Shown here piece after piece: positions 24,252 through 31,993 of a stretch of 64,000 bases of DNA. The notes beneath the pieces were generated by a model. The model had not been told where the DNA came from, did not search any database, and saw nothing but the letters and a program-made list of their open reading frames with translations. Source of the stretch: Lactococcus sp. S-13. GTDB taxonomy: Bacteria > Bacillota > Bacilli > Lactobacillales > Streptococcaceae. The stretch covers positions 1,178,001 through 1,242,000 of the forward strand of contig NZ_SDAK01000001.1 in assembly GCF_004210295.1 (NCBI RefSeq), written 5' to 3'. The position numbers and the translations under genes are program-made. Numbering within the stretch: position 1 is the first letter of the stretch; each line of letters begins with the position of its first letter.

Positions 24252-24271
24252 TTATAATAAATCCAAGGCTT
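24252..24271 (+). repeat. 20-bp copy of the GNAT-gene promoter region
   Basis: Identical over 20 bp (TTATAATAAATCCAAGGCTT) to 31935-31954, which contains the -10 of the acetyltransferase gene. The copies lie outside the two att repeats, one on each side of the element. Confidence 0.85.
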
Positions 24272-24373: not shown

Positions 24374-24396
24374 AACGCTGTTAAAAACTCTGTTAA
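24374..24396 (+). repeat. Left attachment repeat
   Basis: AACGCTGTTAAAAACTCTGT plus TAA, identical to 31841-31863. Identity stops sharply on both sides. Confidence 0.9.
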
Positions 24397-24454
24397 AAAA
24401 ATATACAAAAATTATTCATTGCACCGCCGTGCGTAAAATTGAGAATCATGAGTG

Positions 24455-24477
24455 AGCACTTATTGAGTGCTTTTTAT
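24455..24477 (+). terminator. Terminator inside the left end of the element
   Basis: AGCACT-tattg-AGTGCT followed by T5 on the plus strand; shields the minus-strand cargo gene from read-in, or the reverse. Confidence 0.6.
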
Positions 24478-26096
24478 TTATCTACTAAATTTCTTATTCG
24501 CTTTATCGTTTTATCACTAAAATTAGAAATATTAAAAATGCTCTGCATACTCTTTATAAGGTGTTCAAATTCTATTGGATCATTTTTTATCGTTAAGAGA
24601 TGAACTGCAAGCTCTAATTCCTCTATAGATACATAATTCGATTTTCTACAATTGAATTTATATTTTGAATTTTTTCGTATAGAGTTAACTTTCGAGTCCC
24701 GTACGTATAAAAATTTATCCTTCTGAATTATTGCTGAACTATTTATTAACTTCTGAACACAAGTCTTAAATTGTTCACCATTAAACTCTTCTTCCATTAT
24801 CATTTCTAATCTTTTTTTCAAGAATTTTTTATGAATAGGAGATTCCTCTATTATCACATTTAAAATATAACCAGTCATATAGTGATTGTCCCCGAGCCAG
24901 TCCCTGTGAGCTGGAAAAATCGCAACATACTCTCCTACATAGTCTTTAATAGATTCTTCTTTATTCTCATAAAATCCTTTTAATAGTGGAAACTCGTTTT
25001 CTTGCAATGAAATTGGCTGCTCATATAGTAAATATTCATCATCACAATAAATATCACCATCAAGAATCAAGCCATCGATAATTTGATTGATATTAACTAA
25101 TTCCTCAAATTCTTCTATTTCTTCATTTAAAATATAAAAATCCTCAATTTCTTTAATTAAATTAGACTTTTTCACCCTTCCTTCCCACTGGACAGTTTCA
25201 TATACTATATCTATAACAAAATCTTTATCTCTTATATTGAAAGGCGGTCTAGGGAAATCAAAGTAAGTAGTTATTAATTTTATATCATTAACTGATTCTC
25301 CCATCTCAGTATCCGGTATAAGCAGTTCAATATCATTAAAATTTACCTTATTCAAAAAAACTTTCACTTCATCTTGAGTTAATAAACTCGAGTATGAATC
25401 CCCTTGTTTCTTAGTAATTTTCATAATGTCCTTTTTTTGTATTCCTGTTCTTTGAGATAATTCTAAGACACTAACTACCTTTTCATTACCTTGGAATAAA
25501 ATATTTTTTTCAAGCGTTCCTATTATGCTCTTTTTCATACACAATTTTTCTTTCTTCTTCAAGGGAAAATTCCCTTTCGAAAAATCTTCTAATTTTTGAT
25601 CAAAAAAAGTTGGGGGATTTGAAACACATTTCAAATCTTTATAATTTTTGTAAAGTTTGTAGGGAAAGTTCTGCCCAGAAAAATACCTCAGTATTAAATC
25701 ATCCAAATCCTTCTGTATCTTTTTATTTTTGTCTTTAATTTCATCTACAGCTAGTTCGGAAATTTTTAGATGCTGCTCCAAATGATTTATACCTAAAAAT
25801 TTACTTTTTTTTTCATCAATTCTCTTTATTTCATATAAATATTTTACAGCATGACCACAGTCACAATGTAAAGTATTCTTATTTCCTAAGTGAATATCGA
25901 AGTTTAAATCCTCAGTATAACCTGCAAAAAGCCATTGTGTATTGTTAATAATATTTGTATGAAATTTAGAAATCCACAACCATTTGCGATGAGAGTAGAG
26001 CGCCTCATTTTGCTCTAATGATAATTGTCTAAAAAATTTTACCCGCCTTTCTAATAAGCGATCCTTTGCCTTATTTTTTTTCTTTGTATAACTCAT
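24474..26096 (-). CDS. Large CxCG-motif protein of unknown function (element cargo)
   Basis: 540 residues, no recognised catalytic motif. An N-terminal basic stretch (residues 1-25) is followed near residue 78 by a HCDCGHAVKYLYEI motif and, about 20 residues later, LGINHLEQHL, which together look like a short metal-binding ribbon or its remnant. Residues about 105-135 are helical and charged. The middle part has a segment like an HTH (LELSQRTGIQKKDIMKITKK). Near residues 420-480, NVIIEESPIHKKFLKKRLEM is a winged-helix-like repeat of the kind found at the ends of nuclease/helicase proteins (DUF3320-like in shape). RBS GGGGGTG precedes the ATG. Terminator and extended -10 (26240-26245) lie upstream, so it has its own transcript. 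A nucleic-acid-binding defence or regulatory protein is possible; function unknown. Confidence 0.72.
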   Translation of the reverse strand: MSYTKKKNKAKDRLLERRVKFFRQLSLEQNEALYSHRKWLWISKFHTNIINNTQWLFAGYTEDLNFDIHLGNKNTLHCDCGHAVKYLYEIKRIDEKKSKFLGINHLEQHLKISELAVDEIKDKNKKIQKDLDDLILRYFSGQNFPYKLYKNYKDLKCVSNPPTFFDQKLEDFSKGNFPLKKKEKLCMKKSIIGTLEKNILFQGNEKVVSVLELSQRTGIQKKDIMKITKKQGDSYSSLLTQDEVKVFLNKVNFNDIELLIPDTEMGESVNDIKLITTYFDFPRPPFNIRDKDFVIDIVYETVQWEGRVKKSNLIKEIEDFYILNEEIEEFEELVNINQIIDGLILDGDIYCDDEYLLYEQPISLQENEFPLLKGFYENKEESIKDYVGEYVAIFPAHRDWLGDNHYMTGYILNVIIEESPIHKKFLKKRLEMIMEEEFNGEQFKTCVQKLINSSAIIQKDKFLYVRDSKVNSIRKNSKYKFNCRKSNYVSIEELELAVHLLTIKNDPIEFEHLIKSMQSIFNISNFSDKTIKRIRNLVDK

Positions 26097-26256
26097 TTAC
26101 ACCCCCAACACTATATGCTTCCTGCATTAGTTTCCTTAACCTACATCCTTCCTTAGATCACAGCTGTACTTTTTTCTTCCCTCAATTATTATTTCCTTCT
26201 GTGAAGGTTCTCATGCTTGCGTTTCTCTTTTAGAAAATTATAGCATAATCGGGATA

Positions 26257-26279
26257 AAATAAAAACGCCCTGAAGGGCG
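26257..26279 (-). terminator. Terminator between the two cargo genes
   Basis: CGCCCT-tc-AGGGCG followed by T5ATTTT on the minus strand, separating the GIY-YIG gene from the 540-residue gene. Confidence 0.85.
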
Positions 26280-26375
26280 GAGATAGTTATTTTATTACTT
26301 CAACTATCAGAAATTTAGTATAGTTCATATCATCTGTGAGCGAGTGGTTTAAAATGTGCCCTGATCATTAATTAT

Positions 26376-27281
26376 TTAATTTTGATTATATCCAAACTTA
26401 CGTGATTGGAAAGCCTCCTTCCAATATATTTCTCTTTTTAATGCTTTACCTTTTCCAATTTCATCTTTTTTAAATATTTCTAGAACTGTGTATTGAAAAT
26501 TCTTTTGAACATACTCTATCCCTTTGTTACTGACGAGTTCTTTTAATTTAGTATTTGGATATTTACTATCTTCTTTCTCATTTTTATCATATCCATCAGC
26601 AAGATAAGCAGACCATCGTCCATAAATACCATCTTGGCCAGTTGCAGAACCAACGTATAATTTTCCAGTTTTTTTATCTGTTATTAAATAGACCCCATAA
26701 ACTTCTGATAAAGCTTGCACCCACAACTTATTATTCCAATGCTGTTTTAAATCATAATAGCTTTTACATAAGTTTTCATAACCTGGGAAGTTAATATCTA
26801 ATTCAAAATATGGTTCTGTTGAAATAGAATCTACCTGGACGCTGTTAATAATCTCAGGGTTAACATAAAAAAAACTTTGACCCCTGTTTTTGAAATCAAC
26901 AATCAGCCTTTCTGCATATTGATCATATTCTTGAATTCTGACTGCTTCAGCATAAGACTTGAAATAATTTGCAGAAAAATGGTAAGTTAAACTATCTCGG
27001 CTTTTGATGTCGTATGCCCCAACAAAGAGCCACCTATGCTTTTCAACCTCAATAAATTGAAATTGTATATCGTTCACTGCATTTCTAGATACACTCTTAC
27101 TCCCAGCTGTCAACATCATGGGAATAAAATAATCTTCTTTCATTCTACACATATCAGCATAATCAAATACAATATCATTATACTTCCAATTAGTGTTAAA
27201 TCTTAATTTTATTCTTTTTCCTTTATATTTTTCCAGTAAAGTTTCAAAATTAAGTATATCTTTCAATAAAATCGTCATCAA
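26376..27281 (-). CDS. GIY-YIG nuclease-domain protein (element cargo)
   Basis: 301 residues. The C-terminal ~100 residues form a GIY-YIG nuclease: GVYLITDKKTGKLYVGSATG has the two beta strands (G-V-Y ... Y-V-G), the catalytic Arg follows in IYGRWSAYL, and the metal-binding Glu is in LKREIYWKEAFQSRKFG. The N-terminal ~190 residues are a separate domain of alternating beta and helix (WKYNDIVFDYADMCR, RWLFVGAYDI) without a recognised name, perhaps for DNA or modified-base recognition. Such two-domain proteins occur scattered in mobile islands and are often taken as restriction-like; that role is inferred. RBS TTAGGAG before ATG. Downstream terminator at 26257-26279. Confidence 0.85.
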   Translation of the reverse strand: MMTILLKDILNFETLLEKYKGKRIKLRFNTNWKYNDIVFDYADMCRMKEDYFIPMMLTAGSKSVSRNAVNDIQFQFIEVEKHRWLFVGAYDIKSRDSLTYHFSANYFKSYAEAVRIQEYDQYAERLIVDFKNRGQSFFYVNPEIINSVQVDSISTEPYFELDINFPGYENLCKSYYDLKQHWNNKLWVQALSEVYGVYLITDKKTGKLYVGSATGQDGIYGRWSAYLADGYDKNEKEDSKYPNTKLKELVSNKGIEYVQKNFQYTVLEIFKKDEIGKGKALKREIYWKEAFQSRKFGYNQN

Positions 27282-27537
27282 TAATTCTCCTAAAAACCTT
27301 TTTGAACTAATTTGTTCATTATAAAACTTGCTACACAGATTATTACCGAAATCTCCTCAAATTAGATTCTAATTCATCTCATTTTCTTCTAGCATGTATT
27401 TGCCTTACCTGAGCAGCTTGGAATAAATTTTGCTTTCAAAATATTATTCTCCTACTAGATAATAGCTTATCATATTTTTAAGTTCATATCATTCATGAAG
27501 AGTAATTGAAACTGCCCCCTTTATCACAAGTCATAAA

Positions 27538-27674
27538 TTTTAGGAATTCAAAAATCCCTGACTGAACGATGTGCTTCTCATACCTACGTGATGTCAGTAT
27601 GGATTTTGTCTAGCGTTGTAACCTCCACACCTTTGAGAGCGTTAGGAACTTTACACCCGAAACCGTGTTTTTGG
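27538..27674 (-). ncRNA. Candidate structured RNA upstream of the GIY-YIG gene
   Basis: The 586-bp gap 27282-27867 has no gene. On the minus strand an extended -10 (TGGTATAAT, 27689-27681) is followed by an unusually GC-richer 135-nt stretch in otherwise AT-rich DNA. It holds stems AACgCUC/GAGGUU, CAUAC/GUAUG and, at 27538-27556, AGGGAUU-uuug-AAUUCCU. A 32-codon frame (27682-27584, includes HGFGCKVPNALKGVEV) covers it but has no RBS and starts within the -10 region, so an RNA is more likely than a peptide. The layout recalls the non-coding RNA found in front of AbiF-type abortive-infection genes, but no Abi frame follows here. The rest of the gap shows nothing more. Confidence 0.45.
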
Positions 27675-27867
27675 TATGACATTATACCACGTATCGTAAA
27701 ACTGAAATTTTCGTTGTTGCGTCCATTAAAATTAATAATTGATATCCCTTATATTTACAACTTACTTTCTATTTCCTAATATAAAAATCAGAGCCTATTA
27801 TATAGATACTAGTATTTAAAATAGTTTTAAGGTAAAATAATAGTAAAATATTTAGTGAGGTAAACTT

Positions 27868-28254
27868 ATGGACACGCAGGATTTGATAACACGTTCTGAA
27901 AATCAAATTGACGATTTCAAAAAGAATAATGAAGTTATTTTAAAAGATAATATCAATCAAGAAATTATTAAAACGAAAAATTCATTTTCAAAAGAAATTT
28001 GGGACGAAGAATTATCTTTAGAAGTTGAAAAAGAAGTTGAAAAGAAATTAACTGCACTTAATAACAGCATTGATCTAAATCCTACTTCGATTTATTTCAC
28101 CCTCAAAGCCGAAACTGCTCTCAATCCTGATATTTCAGAAGAGGAGCTTAAGTTAGCTGCTTATAAATTTTTATCTTCAAAAACCAAAAATAAATTTATG
28201 AAAAAAATTTTGAAAGAAAAAATAAGCAAATTCACAAAAGGGGGAAATAAATGA
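27868..28254 (+). CDS. Hypothetical 128-residue helical protein
   Basis: Strongly charged, helix-rich protein with coiled-coil character (EVEKEVEKKLTALNNS) and a C-terminal ELKLAAYKFLSSKTKNKF stretch. No family recognised, no membrane segment. Start ATG with GTGAGG RBS. Its TGA overlaps the next ATG (ATGA), so both products are made together. Very AT-rich. Located in the cargo zone of the element on the opposite strand to the two larger cargo genes. Confidence 0.7.
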   Translation: MDTQDLITRSENQIDDFKKNNEVILKDNINQEIIKTKNSFSKEIWDEELSLEVEKEVEKKLTALNNSIDLNPTSIYFTLKAETALNPDISEEELKLAAYKFLSSKTKNKFMKKILKEKISKFTKGGNK

Positions 28255-28424
28255 GTATTCAAACCTTAGGAATAAAAATCGGGAAAATCATTATTCAAAT
28301 TATTTCTCAACAGATTATAAAATATACTACAAGTGAGCAGTTTCAAAAACGAGTCAGTGATATGTTGGATGGGGTAATTGATAAGATTGTAAAAGCAGTA
28401 CTATCAGAGAATAAAAGTAAGTAA
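28251..28424 (+). CDS. Hypothetical 57-residue partner protein
   Basis: MSIQTLGIKIGKIIIQIISQ then QIIKYTTSEQ and a C-terminal VIDKIVKAVLSENKSK. An amphipathic, Ile-rich small protein, translationally coupled to the 128-residue protein (ATGA overlap). The size and pairing resemble small two-component modules such as toxin-antitoxin pairs, but nothing diagnostic is seen. A terminator follows directly. Confidence 0.65.
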   Translation: MSIQTLGIKIGKIIIQIISQQIIKYTTSEQFQKRVSDMLDGVIDKIVKAVLSENKSK

Positions 28425-28425
28425 A

Positions 28426-28449
28426 AGCATCTATAATGGATGCTTTTTT
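28426..28449 (+). terminator. Terminator of the two-gene cassette
   Basis: AGCATC-tataatg-GATGCT followed by T5, starting 2 nt after the stop codon. Confidence 0.85.
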
Positions 28450-28881
28450 CTTCCCATTAATTATTTCTTTGATTTTTTATTAAACGATGTCATAAATATC
28501 TATTATTAACGTTAAAACACCTATTTTCCATTTTTTACCTAAACTATTGATAATATGCATATTAGAGCTTTTATCTCCACTTTTTTTGCGAGAATTCCCA
28601 CAAAAACTAATTTTCCCATAAATCGTTGTGTAGCTTGAATGATTAGGCTTTTTTGACACTTTTTCTATGATTTCACACCCCCTTTCATTTTTTAAAAGTT
28701 GTGCAACTTTATTTGTGACTCCATCTACCCTATCCTCCAAAAAGAAATTTATTTTTATTTTGGATAGGGGGGGGTAACTTTAGTTTACTTTTAGAGTAAT
28801 TTTTACTATTTTAGAATAACTATAGTTGATTACATTCATTATCATACTTACTATGCTGCCATAAGACCTTAGAGCAACTTA
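28450..28881. other. Gene-poor stretch with a G8 run and inverted repeat
   Basis: A minus-strand frame at 28740-28480 (86 codons, TTG start, no RBS) is possible but unconvincing. An eight-G run (28767-28774) sits beside GGATAGGG, whose complement CCTATCC recurs at 28729-28736, so the two can pair. No promoter with both boxes seen. Confidence 0.4.
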
Positions 28882-28914
28882 AAAAGTACCTCACTCAAAT
28901 AGAGAGGTACTTTT
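28882..28914 (-). terminator. Terminator of the Rha-like operon
   Basis: Perfect 11-bp stem AAAAGTACCTC / GAGGTACTTTT with T runs, 4 bp past the last stop codon. Confidence 0.9.
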
Positions 28915-28917
28915 ATT

Positions 28918-29058
28918 TTACGCTTGTGCTATGATCTCCTTGGCTCTCTTCATGAATTTAGCTGTTCGTGTAGAAACTTGGTAAACTGTCAATCCTGTGT
29001 GCTCAGCAGTTTCTGCGATACTTAATAACCGCTCTGCTTGGTCAGATAGTAAGCTCAT
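28918..29058 (-). CDS. 46-residue protein, last gene of the Rha-like operon
   Basis: Very short frame MSLLSDQAERLLSIAETAEH... ending KRAKEIIAQA. Supported by an ATGA overlap with the gene before it, normal codon use and a terminator straight after. Could be a small HTH or linker protein of the element; no family recognised. Confidence 0.6.
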   Translation of the reverse strand: MSLLSDQAERLLSIAETAEHTGLTVYQVSTRTAKFMKRAKEIIAQA

Positions 29059-29573
29059 TGGTAACCTCCATTCTTACGTTTGGAAATAACTTCCATGACG
29101 GCATAGGTTAATTTATCTTCAGCAATCCCAAGCTCAGAAGAAAGTTCAACAACATCAGCAGCAGCAAGAATGTCAAATGCTGACAAATCTGTTTTCCTTG
29201 ATCTTTGGCGCTGTTCTCTAATTCCTCTAGCATATCCAGCCCAGTATAAGTCTGGGGCTATCCACCTTGCCTCTCTACCGTTCGCTTTGTTAGCCATAGA
29301 AAGCTCGAAAGTATTAAGAAATAATGAATCATCAACAGGCCTGGTATAACAAGCTCTTAGATCTCGCTTAGCTTGTTGCTTCTCTTTCCAACGTTGTACC
29401 ATTCCAGCAGTAATTTTAATACTCCATGGTTCGCGGTTAGTGTTAATAAAAAATACATTTTTGTTAAACGCATTTCCAGAGACGCTTTTACGGATAAAAT
29501 AATGATTACGATTTTCATCTAAAGGAGTAGAAAAAAGCAAAATATACTTGTTTTCTGCAGTGATACTTTTCAT
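29055..29573 (-). CDS. Hypothetical 172-residue element protein
   Basis: Basic protein with a central helical region (MVQRWKEKQQAKRDLRACYT) and an ordered C-terminus (AFDILAAADVVELSSELGIA). No catalytic motif recognised. Third gene of the minus operon, 10 nt after the 54-residue gene and overlapping the 46-residue gene. Composition less AT-rich than the cargo zone, similar to the Rha-like gene. Confidence 0.7.
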   Translation of the reverse strand: MKSITAENKYILLFSTPLDENRNHYFIRKSVSGNAFNKNVFFINTNREPWSIKITAGMVQRWKEKQQAKRDLRACYTRPVDDSLFLNTFELSMANKANGREARWIAPDLYWAGYARGIREQRQRSRKTDLSAFDILAAADVVELSSELGIAEDKLTYAVMEVISKRKNGGYQ

Positions 29574-29583
29574 AACCTACACC

Positions 29584-29748
29584 TTAACCTTTCGTCATGT
29601 AACGTGTGTATGCTGTAACTGTTCTAAACGTGCGTTCTAAGCCCCGTTTGTTCCAAACCGTCCAAATATGAGTACTTGGGTCAAACTGAACCTGTGCGCC
29701 TGACTGTGTGCCGTGAGTTGGGTATAATACTTCGATTGTATTGTTCAT
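29584..29748 (-). CDS. 54-residue protein of the Rha-like operon
   Basis: MNNTIEVLYPTHGTQSGAQV, then a WTVWNKRG turn and a C-terminal YTRYMTKG. Too short for a family call but supported by an AGAGG RBS 8 nt before ATG and tight placement between its operon neighbours. Confidence 0.6.
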   Translation of the reverse strand: MNNTIEVLYPTHGTQSGAQVQFDPSTHIWTVWNKRGLERTFRTVTAYTRYMTKG

Positions 29749-29826
29749 TTGTGTTACCTCTCTTTTTAGTGTAAAATAGAGAGTAGAAAAGCTTTACTAG
29801 AGCCTTTCTACTCATAATTACTTTTT

Positions 29827-30510
29827 TCAAAAACTGTCTTTGGTCGCCAAACTTTCGGACAGTTTTTTTGTTGCAATTTTTTCGACATATTCCTTGATGT
29901 CCTTATAAGTTTCCCCAAAATCAAGTAAAGGAATAACCAGCGCTTTTAACTTGTTATATCGTTCTAATTCTTCAGCTGTCAGCAAGTCAACCATTGGAAC
30001 GCCTTTATCTCCCCGAGCTTGTACCTTCGTATAAGGCAAACCTGTAGCACACTTAATTAGCAACTTTCTAAAATTACTTTGTGCGTAGTTATTAGTATGC
30101 TTCCAATTTTGAACTGCATCCGTTAAACTTCGAGTAGTCGCTTTTTCTGTGGCTCGCTCAATTTTGCGAGCTTGTAGCTCATTTCTCATCGCAACAAAGG
30201 CTGCAGCTAAATCAAATTTAAATTGTACAACTGCAGGAGTGTTCCCCAAAAGCGGAATAAAGAAAAGAGTTTGTTGTTCGTTTAATTTATATACTTTTCT
30301 TGAGCGTCCTGCATCATTTACATTTAGCTTTTTGAAAAAGCTATTTAGATGTGCAATTTTTTCAAGTTCAGAACGATATTTACGTACCAAGTCAGATTCA
30401 ACTTTATAAGAGTTGCCTGATTGTGTCGCAATAATCTCGGTCGTGGTATAAAAATTTTCATTGCTTGATTTAGATAAGTCGAGACTGTCAAATAATACTA
30501 ATGGGTTCAT
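29827..30510 (-). CDS. Rha-like phage regulatory protein
   Basis: About 227 residues. Residues 20-120 follow the Rha/antirepressor N-terminal pattern: TTTEIIATQSGNSYKVESDL (TTxxIA..xG..H/Y..V), then GRSRKVYKLNEQQTLFFIPL and KFDLAAAFVAMRNELQARK. The C-terminal half is a separate helical domain. In prophages such proteins switch lysogeny genes. The ATG at 30510 with AGAGG is preferred; a GTG at 30549 would read through a perfect 16-bp palindrome that looks like an operator. Head of a four-gene minus operon, divergent from int. Confidence 0.7.
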   Translation of the reverse strand: MNPLVLFDSLDLSKSSNENFYTTTEIIATQSGNSYKVESDLVRKYRSELEKIAHLNSFFKKLNVNDAGRSRKVYKLNEQQTLFFIPLLGNTPAVVQFKFDLAAAFVAMRNELQARKIERATEKATTRSLTDAVQNWKHTNNYAQSNFRKLLIKCATGLPYTKVQARGDKGVPMVDLLTAEELERYNKLKALVIPLLDFGETYKDIKEYVEKIATKKLSESLATKDSF

Positions 30511-30524
30511 CTTCCTCTTTTCTA

Positions 30525-30540
30525 CTGACAGATCTGTCAG
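30525..30540. promoter_or_regulatory. Perfect palindrome between the Rha-like gene and int
   Basis: CTGACAGATCTGTCAG, a 16-bp perfect inverted repeat, 15 bp upstream of the regulator's ATG and about 80 bp upstream of the int ATG. A likely operator for divergent control. Confidence 0.5.
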
Positions 30541-30618
30541 GCTACTCACCGTGTTTCAACGCTTTATTTTTATGTTTTCAATTTTGCGTACTGGGCGGTG
30601 CTAGAAAGACAAATCAAC

Positions 30619-31836
30619 ATGAACAAACTAAATATCAAAGAATACAAAACCAAAGGCGGAGAGGTGCGTTATATTCTCCGTGGTGCTTATATTGGTACTG
30701 ATGTGCTGACAGGTAAGCAAGTTAAAACATACGTCAGAGGGCGTACAAAAACAGGCGTCAAGAATGAACTCGAACGCCTGAAAAATGATTTTAAGAAAAA
30801 TGGTTGTGCTAAAAGAAAATCATCCTTGAACACTTTTTCTGAAGTTGCTGAGAGTTTCTTTGAATTTTATAAGCTGCAGCAAAAAATTGGATCAGTTAAA
30901 CAAATGAGAGCTAATCTTGATACTTATTCTCTCCCAGCTTTTGGAAATAAACGAATTAGTAAAATTACTACTGCACAAATCCAAAAGCAAGTAATCCTTT
31001 GGGCCAAAAACGCTGCAGAACCTCTTGAAGGTAAGCAGAAAAGAACGCAGGGAAAAGGAAAAGACTATAAGTTACAATTTAACGTGATAAATCGTATATT
31101 CCAACACGCTTTTTCTCTTGGGATGATAGATTTTAACCCTTGCCAGTCGGTAATTATCCCGCAGATAAAAATTGATAAAGCGACTAAACAGCTCAAATTT
31201 TATACTAAAATGGAGCTTGAAACGCTATTCTCTCACGTTAGAAGTTTGCCTAGTGGTAAATGGTCAACTGAGTACTTTCAAGCGCTTCTACGCCTACTCG
31301 TGGCTTCTGGCTTACGTATCGGGGAGGCTATGGCTCTATCATGGTCTGATATTGATTTAGATAAACAAACTATTTCTATCAGCAAGACCACTGTACAGCG
31401 CACCACTATCCAAGATACTCCCAAAACTAACAAAAGTACTCGTCAAATTACTATTGATCCTAAAGCAAATGCAACACTTAAACATTGGTTCTTCTATCAA
31501 AAAAAACACTTCATGAGCTTAGGAAATCCACACCAACCACTTGTATTTCCAACTTGGCAAGGAAACGTTATGGATTACCATAGTTTAGCTTATCGGCTCA
31601 AAAAAATTGAAACAGAAGCCAAACTTCCTTTATTATCTTTTCATGGTTTTAGACATTCTCATGCAAGTCTATGTTTAAATGCTGGCATGACCTACAAAGT
31701 TATTCAGGAGCGTCTAGGGCATTCAACTTTACAAATGACAATGGATTTATATTCACATCTTGAGCCTGAAAAGAAAAATAAAGAGCTGGAACTATTCACT
31801 AAATACGCTAAATACGCTAAATACGCTAATTTTTAG
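30619..31836 (+). CDS. int: Tyrosine-family site-specific integrase
   Basis: About 405 residues. An N-terminal arm-binding domain (KEYKTKGGEVRYILRGAY), a SAM-like core-binding domain (residues 75-160), then the catalytic domain: Arg in SGLRIGEAMALSW, HxxR in FHGFRHSHASLC, and GHSTLQMTMDLYSH with the last His and the nucleophilic Tyr. The last codons repeat KYAKYAKYA, reflecting a TACGCTAAA tandem repeat at the 3' end. ATG 30619 is preferred; a GTG at 30598 adds seven residues. Ends 4 bp before the right att repeat. Confidence 0.95.
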   Translation: MNKLNIKEYKTKGGEVRYILRGAYIGTDVLTGKQVKTYVRGRTKTGVKNELERLKNDFKKNGCAKRKSSLNTFSEVAESFFEFYKLQQKIGSVKQMRANLDTYSLPAFGNKRISKITTAQIQKQVILWAKNAAEPLEGKQKRTQGKGKDYKLQFNVINRIFQHAFSLGMIDFNPCQSVIIPQIKIDKATKQLKFYTKMELETLFSHVRSLPSGKWSTEYFQALLRLLVASGLRIGEAMALSWSDIDLDKQTISISKTTVQRTTIQDTPKTNKSTRQITIDPKANATLKHWFFYQKKHFMSLGNPHQPLVFPTWQGNVMDYHSLAYRLKKIETEAKLPLLSFHGFRHSHASLCLNAGMTYKVIQERLGHSTLQMTMDLYSHLEPEKKNKELELFTKYAKYAKYANF

Positions 31837-31840
31837 GTGG

Positions 31841-31863
31841 AACGCTGTTAAAAACTCTGTTAA
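31841..31863 (+). repeat. Right attachment repeat
   Basis: Identical 23 bp to 24374-24396, directly after the int stop codon. Confidence 0.9.
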
Positions 31864-31912: not shown

Positions 31913-31941
31913 TTGACACGTTTTAATAGAAACTTTATAAT
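31913..31941 (+). promoter_or_regulatory. Promoter of the GNAT gene
   Basis: TTGACA, 17-nt spacer, TATAAT: an exact consensus. It lies about 50 bp outside the right att repeat. Confidence 0.85.
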
Positions 31942-31993
31942 AAATCCAAGGCTTTTAAGCAAACTAATCTTTCAAGAGGATAAAGGAGAAAAA

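Follow-up and report, generated by a model that had tools for sequence, protein, structure and literature searches.

The window analysed here, a stretch of 64,000 nucleotides from Lactococcus sp. S-13, contains two long open reading frames lying side by side on the minus strand (Table 1). One codes for a GIY-YIG endonuclease, UzuA, and the other for a 540-residue protein, P540. Both frames are real, as an earlier note made from the sequence alone had described them. They are separated by a gap of 279 nt that contains a terminator-like hairpin. The true start of uzuA is more likely to be the ATG at 27278, predicting a protein of 300 residues, than the TTG at 27281, because the sequence AGGAG is found 7 nt upstream of the ATG. 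The earlier note had also assigned a promoter and a terminator of its own to each gene, and this holds in part. The hairpin-T site after uzuA is a good one, and supports transcription of this gene apart from P540. Promoter-like sites numbered 30, compared with 22 ± 5 in shuffled sequence; as this is within the scatter of the shuffles, separate promoters for uzuA and P540 are unsupported. The hairpin at 24454–24472 reads on the plus strand, and a terminator for P540 is thus not clearly shown.

Table 1. Features of the integrated element and its cargo (positions in the window)
Feature	Position	Strand	Evidence
Integrated element of about 7.5 kb, bIL311-type satellite prophage or remnant	24374-31863		23-bp identical att repeats AACGCTGTTAAAAACTCTGTTAA
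attL, 23-bp core AACGCTGTTAAAAACTCTGTTAA	24374-24396		identical repeat
P540 (540-aa mosaic protein)	24474-26096	minus	ORF call
P540 residues 403-539, DUF3320-type winged helix and C-terminal domain	24480-24890	minus	PDC-S37, ProA, BLASTP
P540 residues 288-358, probable first winged helix	25023-25235	minus	helix/strand order of model; L031 homology
P540 residues 204-232, helix-turn-helix-like segment VVSVLELSQRTGIQKKDIMKITKK	25401-25487	minus	inferred from sequence; low-confidence part of model
P540 residues 15-180, CxCG...HxxxH domain, metal-site-like	25557-26054	minus	47/396 genomes; invariant residues
Intrinsic terminator-like hairpin downstream of uzuA	26279-26266	minus	hairpin-T site
uzuA (Uzume), GIY-YIG endonuclease, 301 aa	26376-27281	minus	PADLOC UzuA E 5.9e-44; start and ribosome site from sequence
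UzuA residues 195-299, GIY-YIG catalytic domain (GVY...YVG, R222, E284, N299)	26385-26699	minus	PF01541; invariant residues; I-TevI fold
UzuA residues 1-190, beta-rich N-terminal domain, putative target-recognition domain	26712-27281	minus	AlphaFold2 model
128-aa element ORF	27868-28254	plus	no family match above cut-off
Rha-type phage regulator of element	29827-30549	minus	PF09669, phrog_2657
Tyrosine integrase, bIL311 type	30598-31836	plus	PF00589 E 5.6e-26
attR, 23-bp core AACGCTGTTAAAAACTCTGTTAA, just downstream of integrase stop codon	31841-31863		identical repeat

The two genes sit at the attL end of the element. Its integrase end is 73% identical in DNA to the int end of the Lactococcus satellite prophage bIL311 over a stretch of 1.3 kb that runs through the att site; bIL311 matches both ends of the element, and its att core agrees in 22 of 23 bases. 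In related Lactococcus genomes the same transporter-like and acetyltransferase-like genes flank the site, and the element is absent. The att repeats, the bIL311-type integrase and these element-free relatives together confirm that the genes are carried as cargo of a mobile element, as had been proposed. The G+C content of this cargo is 28–30% compared with 39% for the window (28.4% against 39.3% for P540).

An exact 20-bp repeat, TTATAATAAATCCAAGGCTT, is found just outside the att repeats, at 24252–24271 and 31935–31954. In the right copy, the repeat makes up the −10 region before the acetyltransferase gene, with a TTGACA-like −35 sequence upstream. This outer repeat was rejected as the att site because a genome without the element (G002) keeps the adjoining sequence on both sides; a chromosomal promoter repeat fits better.

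On its sequence, the 301-residue protein clearly belongs, as a new member, to UzuA, the family of the single-gene Uzume defence system. It matched the PADLOC model PDLC03973 over residues 67–301 and PDLC03974 with E 4.4e-31, and six relatives from plasmids and genomes likewise score best as UzuA. The GIY-YIG domain noted earlier was confirmed by Pfam PF01541, which passes its cut-off with E 2.6e-6, and the GVYLI–YVG motif occupies residues 196–211 in this C-terminal domain. Y198, Y209, G211, R222, E284 and N299 were invariant in two alignments comprising 23 distinct sequences. As the catalytic residues are invariant among these relatives, the active site is complete. In a review (PMC12926258) the single-gene Uzume system is placed among those of unknown mechanism, with reference to Doron et al. 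(2018) and Millman et al. (2022). The defence reading of the nuclease gene therefore stands through its membership of an already known family, and not, as the earlier note had it, as an unrecognised anti-phage system.

Uzume has a patchy distribution, and was found in 10 of 396 Lactobacillales genomes, in 393 plasmid records and in 19 viral contigs. Its relatives stand alone or in unrelated contexts, as a single-gene system would: in the loci that were read they were mostly solitary, and one lay within a type I restriction locus (L093). In three Streptococcaceae genomes (L089, L090 and L091) Uzume occupies the same chromosomal site, a recurrent integration spot with a spermidine/putrescine-type ABC transporter operon on one side and, on the other, a pair of genes of which alaS is the last. 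A gene for a coiled-coil, apparently membrane-anchored protein lies directly downstream of Uzume in L089 and L090.

An AlphaFold2 model of UzuA built from 14 sequences (mean pLDDT 75 for the whole protein) shows a GIY-YIG domain preceded by a beta-rich N-terminal domain. A fold search with this model retrieved the I-TevI catalytic domain with a probability of 1.00. Many YTH m6A-reader structures were also returned, as weak matches with low TM scores, a best E of 6.8e-3 (none below 1e-3) and probabilities of up to 0.77. The weak matches include 1zce and 2gbs, which we take to be EVE-domain structures. When the N-terminal domain was compared by HHalign with EVE and ASCH alignments the probability was below 1%, and membership of these families found no support at the profile level. 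As the fold matches are weak and the profile comparison was negative, a role of the N-terminal domain as a reader of modified bases is a lead and not a result. Fusions of EVE and GIY-YIG domains have been reported (PMC7641849), and CMoRE is a GIY-YIG type IV enzyme (PMC12923530). UzuA would recognise incoming phage DNA by its beta-rich N-terminal domain, which may read modified or flipped bases in the manner of PUA, YTH and EVE domains, and would cut this DNA with its C-terminal active site. The single gene uzuA would in this way protect both the cell and the resident element.

P540 is, to judge by its sequence, a mosaic of domains with a tail homologous to that of the giant PDC-S37 proteins, and without their ATPase and nuclease. 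Its earlier description as a zinc-ribbon-like protein with a helix-turn-helix and a winged helix was largely right. The CDCG motif corresponds to C78-x-C80-G81 and belongs to a C-x-C-G, K, G-x-x-H pattern that P540 shares with its relatives, together with the surrounding 165-residue domain. C78, C80, G81, K85 and G102 are invariant in the relatives, H105 is nearly so and H109 is usual. The CxCG domain occurs in both accessory and chromosomal proteins, and the proteins of the family measure about 260–460 residues; many of the carriers are single chromosomal copies of about 360–460 residues amid ordinary genes. In one locus (L057) the CxCG gene adjoins genes for a HerA-type ATPase, an adenine methylase and a probable restriction nuclease.

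Several other arrangements of the CxCG domain were observed. A 517-residue protein with two CxCG-like repeats, one in a CxxC form, adjoins a type IIG restriction enzyme-methyltransferase of 1490 residues (L063:8548-15483); the CxxC form supports a variable metal-binding site in the domain. An apparent operon at L064:6155-11904 codes for an 841-residue CxCG protein, a 400-residue GIY-YIG protein of the T5orf172 type and a 652-residue ResIII/DEAD helicase, and is a stronger candidate than the uzuA/P540 pair for a true system of several genes. At L065:8862-10898, near type I restriction genes, the domain is C-terminal in a 678-residue PriCT-1 primase-like protein with a helix-turn-helix. On a Ligilactobacillus salivarius plasmid (L032) and on two IMG/VR contigs (L099 and L100) a CxCG gene is followed by an SF2 helicase gene downstream of parM, a conserved plasmid arrangement.

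The closest relative of P540, encoded on an L. garvieae plasmid (L031), is 37–38% identical and ends at about residue 361. Among CxCG proteins, the middle region up to this residue is common only to P540 and the plasmid protein. No full-length relatives were found in viral contigs or GTDB contigs, and a profile search with four sequences added only two distant Companilactobacillus CxCG proteins. Structure prediction gave a poor model of P540 (mean pLDDT 53) that is usable only for the N-terminal domain and part of the middle. Within residues 288–358 the pLDDT was about 61–70 in most of the segment, and winged-helix structures in the PDB were matched with probabilities of 0.9–1.0 and E no better than 0.17. 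Sequence searches against solved structures gave nothing meaningful.

The tail, residues 403–539, was matched by PADLOC PDC-S37 with E 2.3e-11 at profile positions 1392–1531 of 1550, by the end of the NCBIfam model ProA with E 3e-5, and in BLASTP by a PDC-S37 protein of 1592 residues with E 9e-8. The name ProA was not found in the papers searched. When the tail was searched in 399 genomes across the class, only four other significant matches were obtained. Three of these are the C termini of open frames of 1580–1855 residues; the giant relatives carry DUF4011, an AAA helicase, an MTES_1575 nuclease and DUF3320, and score as full PDC-S37. Two motifs, E-x-P-[VI]-H and F-[LF]-[WY], are retained in the alignment with them. 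PMC3710099 describes the DUF3320 region as a winged helix-turn-helix, and the match to it confirms the winged-helix-like tail of the earlier note. Pfam searches found no DUF4011, AAA helicase or MTES_1575 nuclease in P540.

We consider it fairly probable that uzuA and P540 travel as separate cargo genes on a small bIL311-type satellite prophage, uzuA as a Uzume defence gene and P540 as an independent gene, most likely for a DNA-binding protein. P540 appears to combine a metal-site-like CxCG...HxxxH domain with one or two winged helices and with a DUF3320 tail of the kind found in giant defence helicase-nucleases. It is probably a DNA-binding protein; binding to nucleic acid is its most likely mode of action, and it would serve either in stand-alone interference or as a regulator. 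A regulatory role in the element, or an accessory one in its replication or maintenance, would leave uzuA as the only defence cargo, and we put the chances of this somewhat below even. P540 has helix-turn-helix and winged-helix parts, and no nuclease, ATPase or toxin domain was detected in it; its CxCG relatives include those beside parM and a helicase on plasmids, the fusion with the PriCT-1 primase-like protein, and proteins in ordinary chromosomal positions in several genomes. However, the tail is otherwise found on giant proteins that are candidates for anti-phage function, several CxCG relatives lie beside restriction systems, and the element already has a Rha regulator.

It is rather unlikely that P540 is an anti-phage protein in its own right, binding phage DNA and blocking replication or transcription. 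Its cargo position and low G+C content, the shuffling of its domains with the tail of a defence protein, and the recurrence of the CxCG domain at restriction loci are all consistent with such a function; the lack of any detected effector domain is not, and the stably placed chromosomal homologues suggest household roles for the CxCG domain.

The earlier note had joined the two genes as a candidate defence module and had left it open whether they were one system or two. As a two-component system, P540 would bind or sense phage DNA and UzuA would cut it. The genes are adjacent on one strand at the same end of one element, and the distant CxCG protein of L064 adjoins a GIY-YIG protein of a different type together with a helicase. 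However, no P540-like gene, with either the CxCG domain or the DUF3320 tail, was found in the 31 other Uzume loci that were inspected. Co-occurrence in the 396 genomes was that expected by chance: the CxCG domain is present in 47, Uzume in 10 and both in two, compared with 1.2 expected. In the second genome with both families (G082) they are unlinked, about 1.37 Mb apart. No GIY-YIG gene is annotated on the L. garvieae plasmid carrying the nearest relative of P540, and the terminator-like hairpin lies in the 279 nt between uzuA and P540. A two-gene module was therefore rejected as the main reading, and a two-component system appears improbable. Two independent cargo genes are most likely; the adjacency is real and not conserved, and possibly reflects a recent local partnership.

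A bolder combined proposal is a long shot. It holds both that P540 is the first defence protein free of nuclease and ATPase in which a captured DUF3320 tail, for recognition of DNA or a partner, is joined to a metal-site domain that recurs beside restriction systems, and that the N-terminal domain of UzuA is a divergent PUA/YTH-like reader of modified bases. Identity of UzuA as a free-standing homing endonuclease, a selfish gene and not a defence gene, is very unlikely and was rejected on model scores: a PHROG homing endonuclease and the intron-endonuclease model TIGR01453 (E 5e-8) match it, but the latter reaches 33.2 bits against a cut-off of 56.05, the PADLOC homing-endonuclease profile gives E 6e-4, the UzuA models score far higher, and the N-terminal domain shows conservation over its full length with UzuA and not with I-TevI-type DNA-binding tails.

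On the favoured reading of separate cargo, a vague candidate module becomes two genes that can be tested separately. For Uzume, the complete catalytic site, together with the hint from the fold search, leads to the hypothesis of modification- or structure-dependent cleavage of phage DNA; if the N-terminal domain is a modified-base reader, Uzume would be a type IV restriction family. The tail of P540 shows that DUF3320, a module of giant defence helicases, can move alone, with a function that can be tested apart from the helicase. The CxCG family, which is unnamed in the libraries that were searched, turns up repeatedly next to restriction loci and helicases and merits a family model.

Compared with known systems, the element resembles bIL311 in its type of integrase and att core, whereas the cargo is different and the two have almost no other DNA in common. 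P540 is homologous to the giants of the PDC-S37/Hhe/ProA type (DUF4011-AAA-MTES_1575-DUF3320) in their DUF3320 winged helix and C-terminal domain, and has the CxCG domain in place of their DUF4011, SF1 helicase/ATPase and Vsr-type MTES_1575 nuclease. With the CxCG...HxxxH proteins of Lactobacillales it shares residues 15–180, whereas their C-terminal parts differ. CMoRE (PD-T4-3), the type IV restriction enzyme, is like UzuA a single protein with a GIY-YIG nuclease and a recognition domain (PMC12923530), but its nuclease is N-terminal with a GIYxY-YIG motif, and that of UzuA is C-terminal with GVYLI-YVG. SNIPE has DUF4041 and an N-terminal transmembrane segment; UzuA has no DUF4041 in Pfam and no hydrophobic N-terminal segment. 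The closest likeness is to Uzume itself (PDLC03973/PDLC03974), with the same full-length family match, a C-terminal GIY-YIG domain and a single gene on mobile elements. The protein described here is about 30–40% identical to the Uzume members sampled, and carries a 9-residue insertion after the catalytic arginine (the YDKNEKEDSKYP region) that is otherwise found only in the L. plantarum plasmid form.
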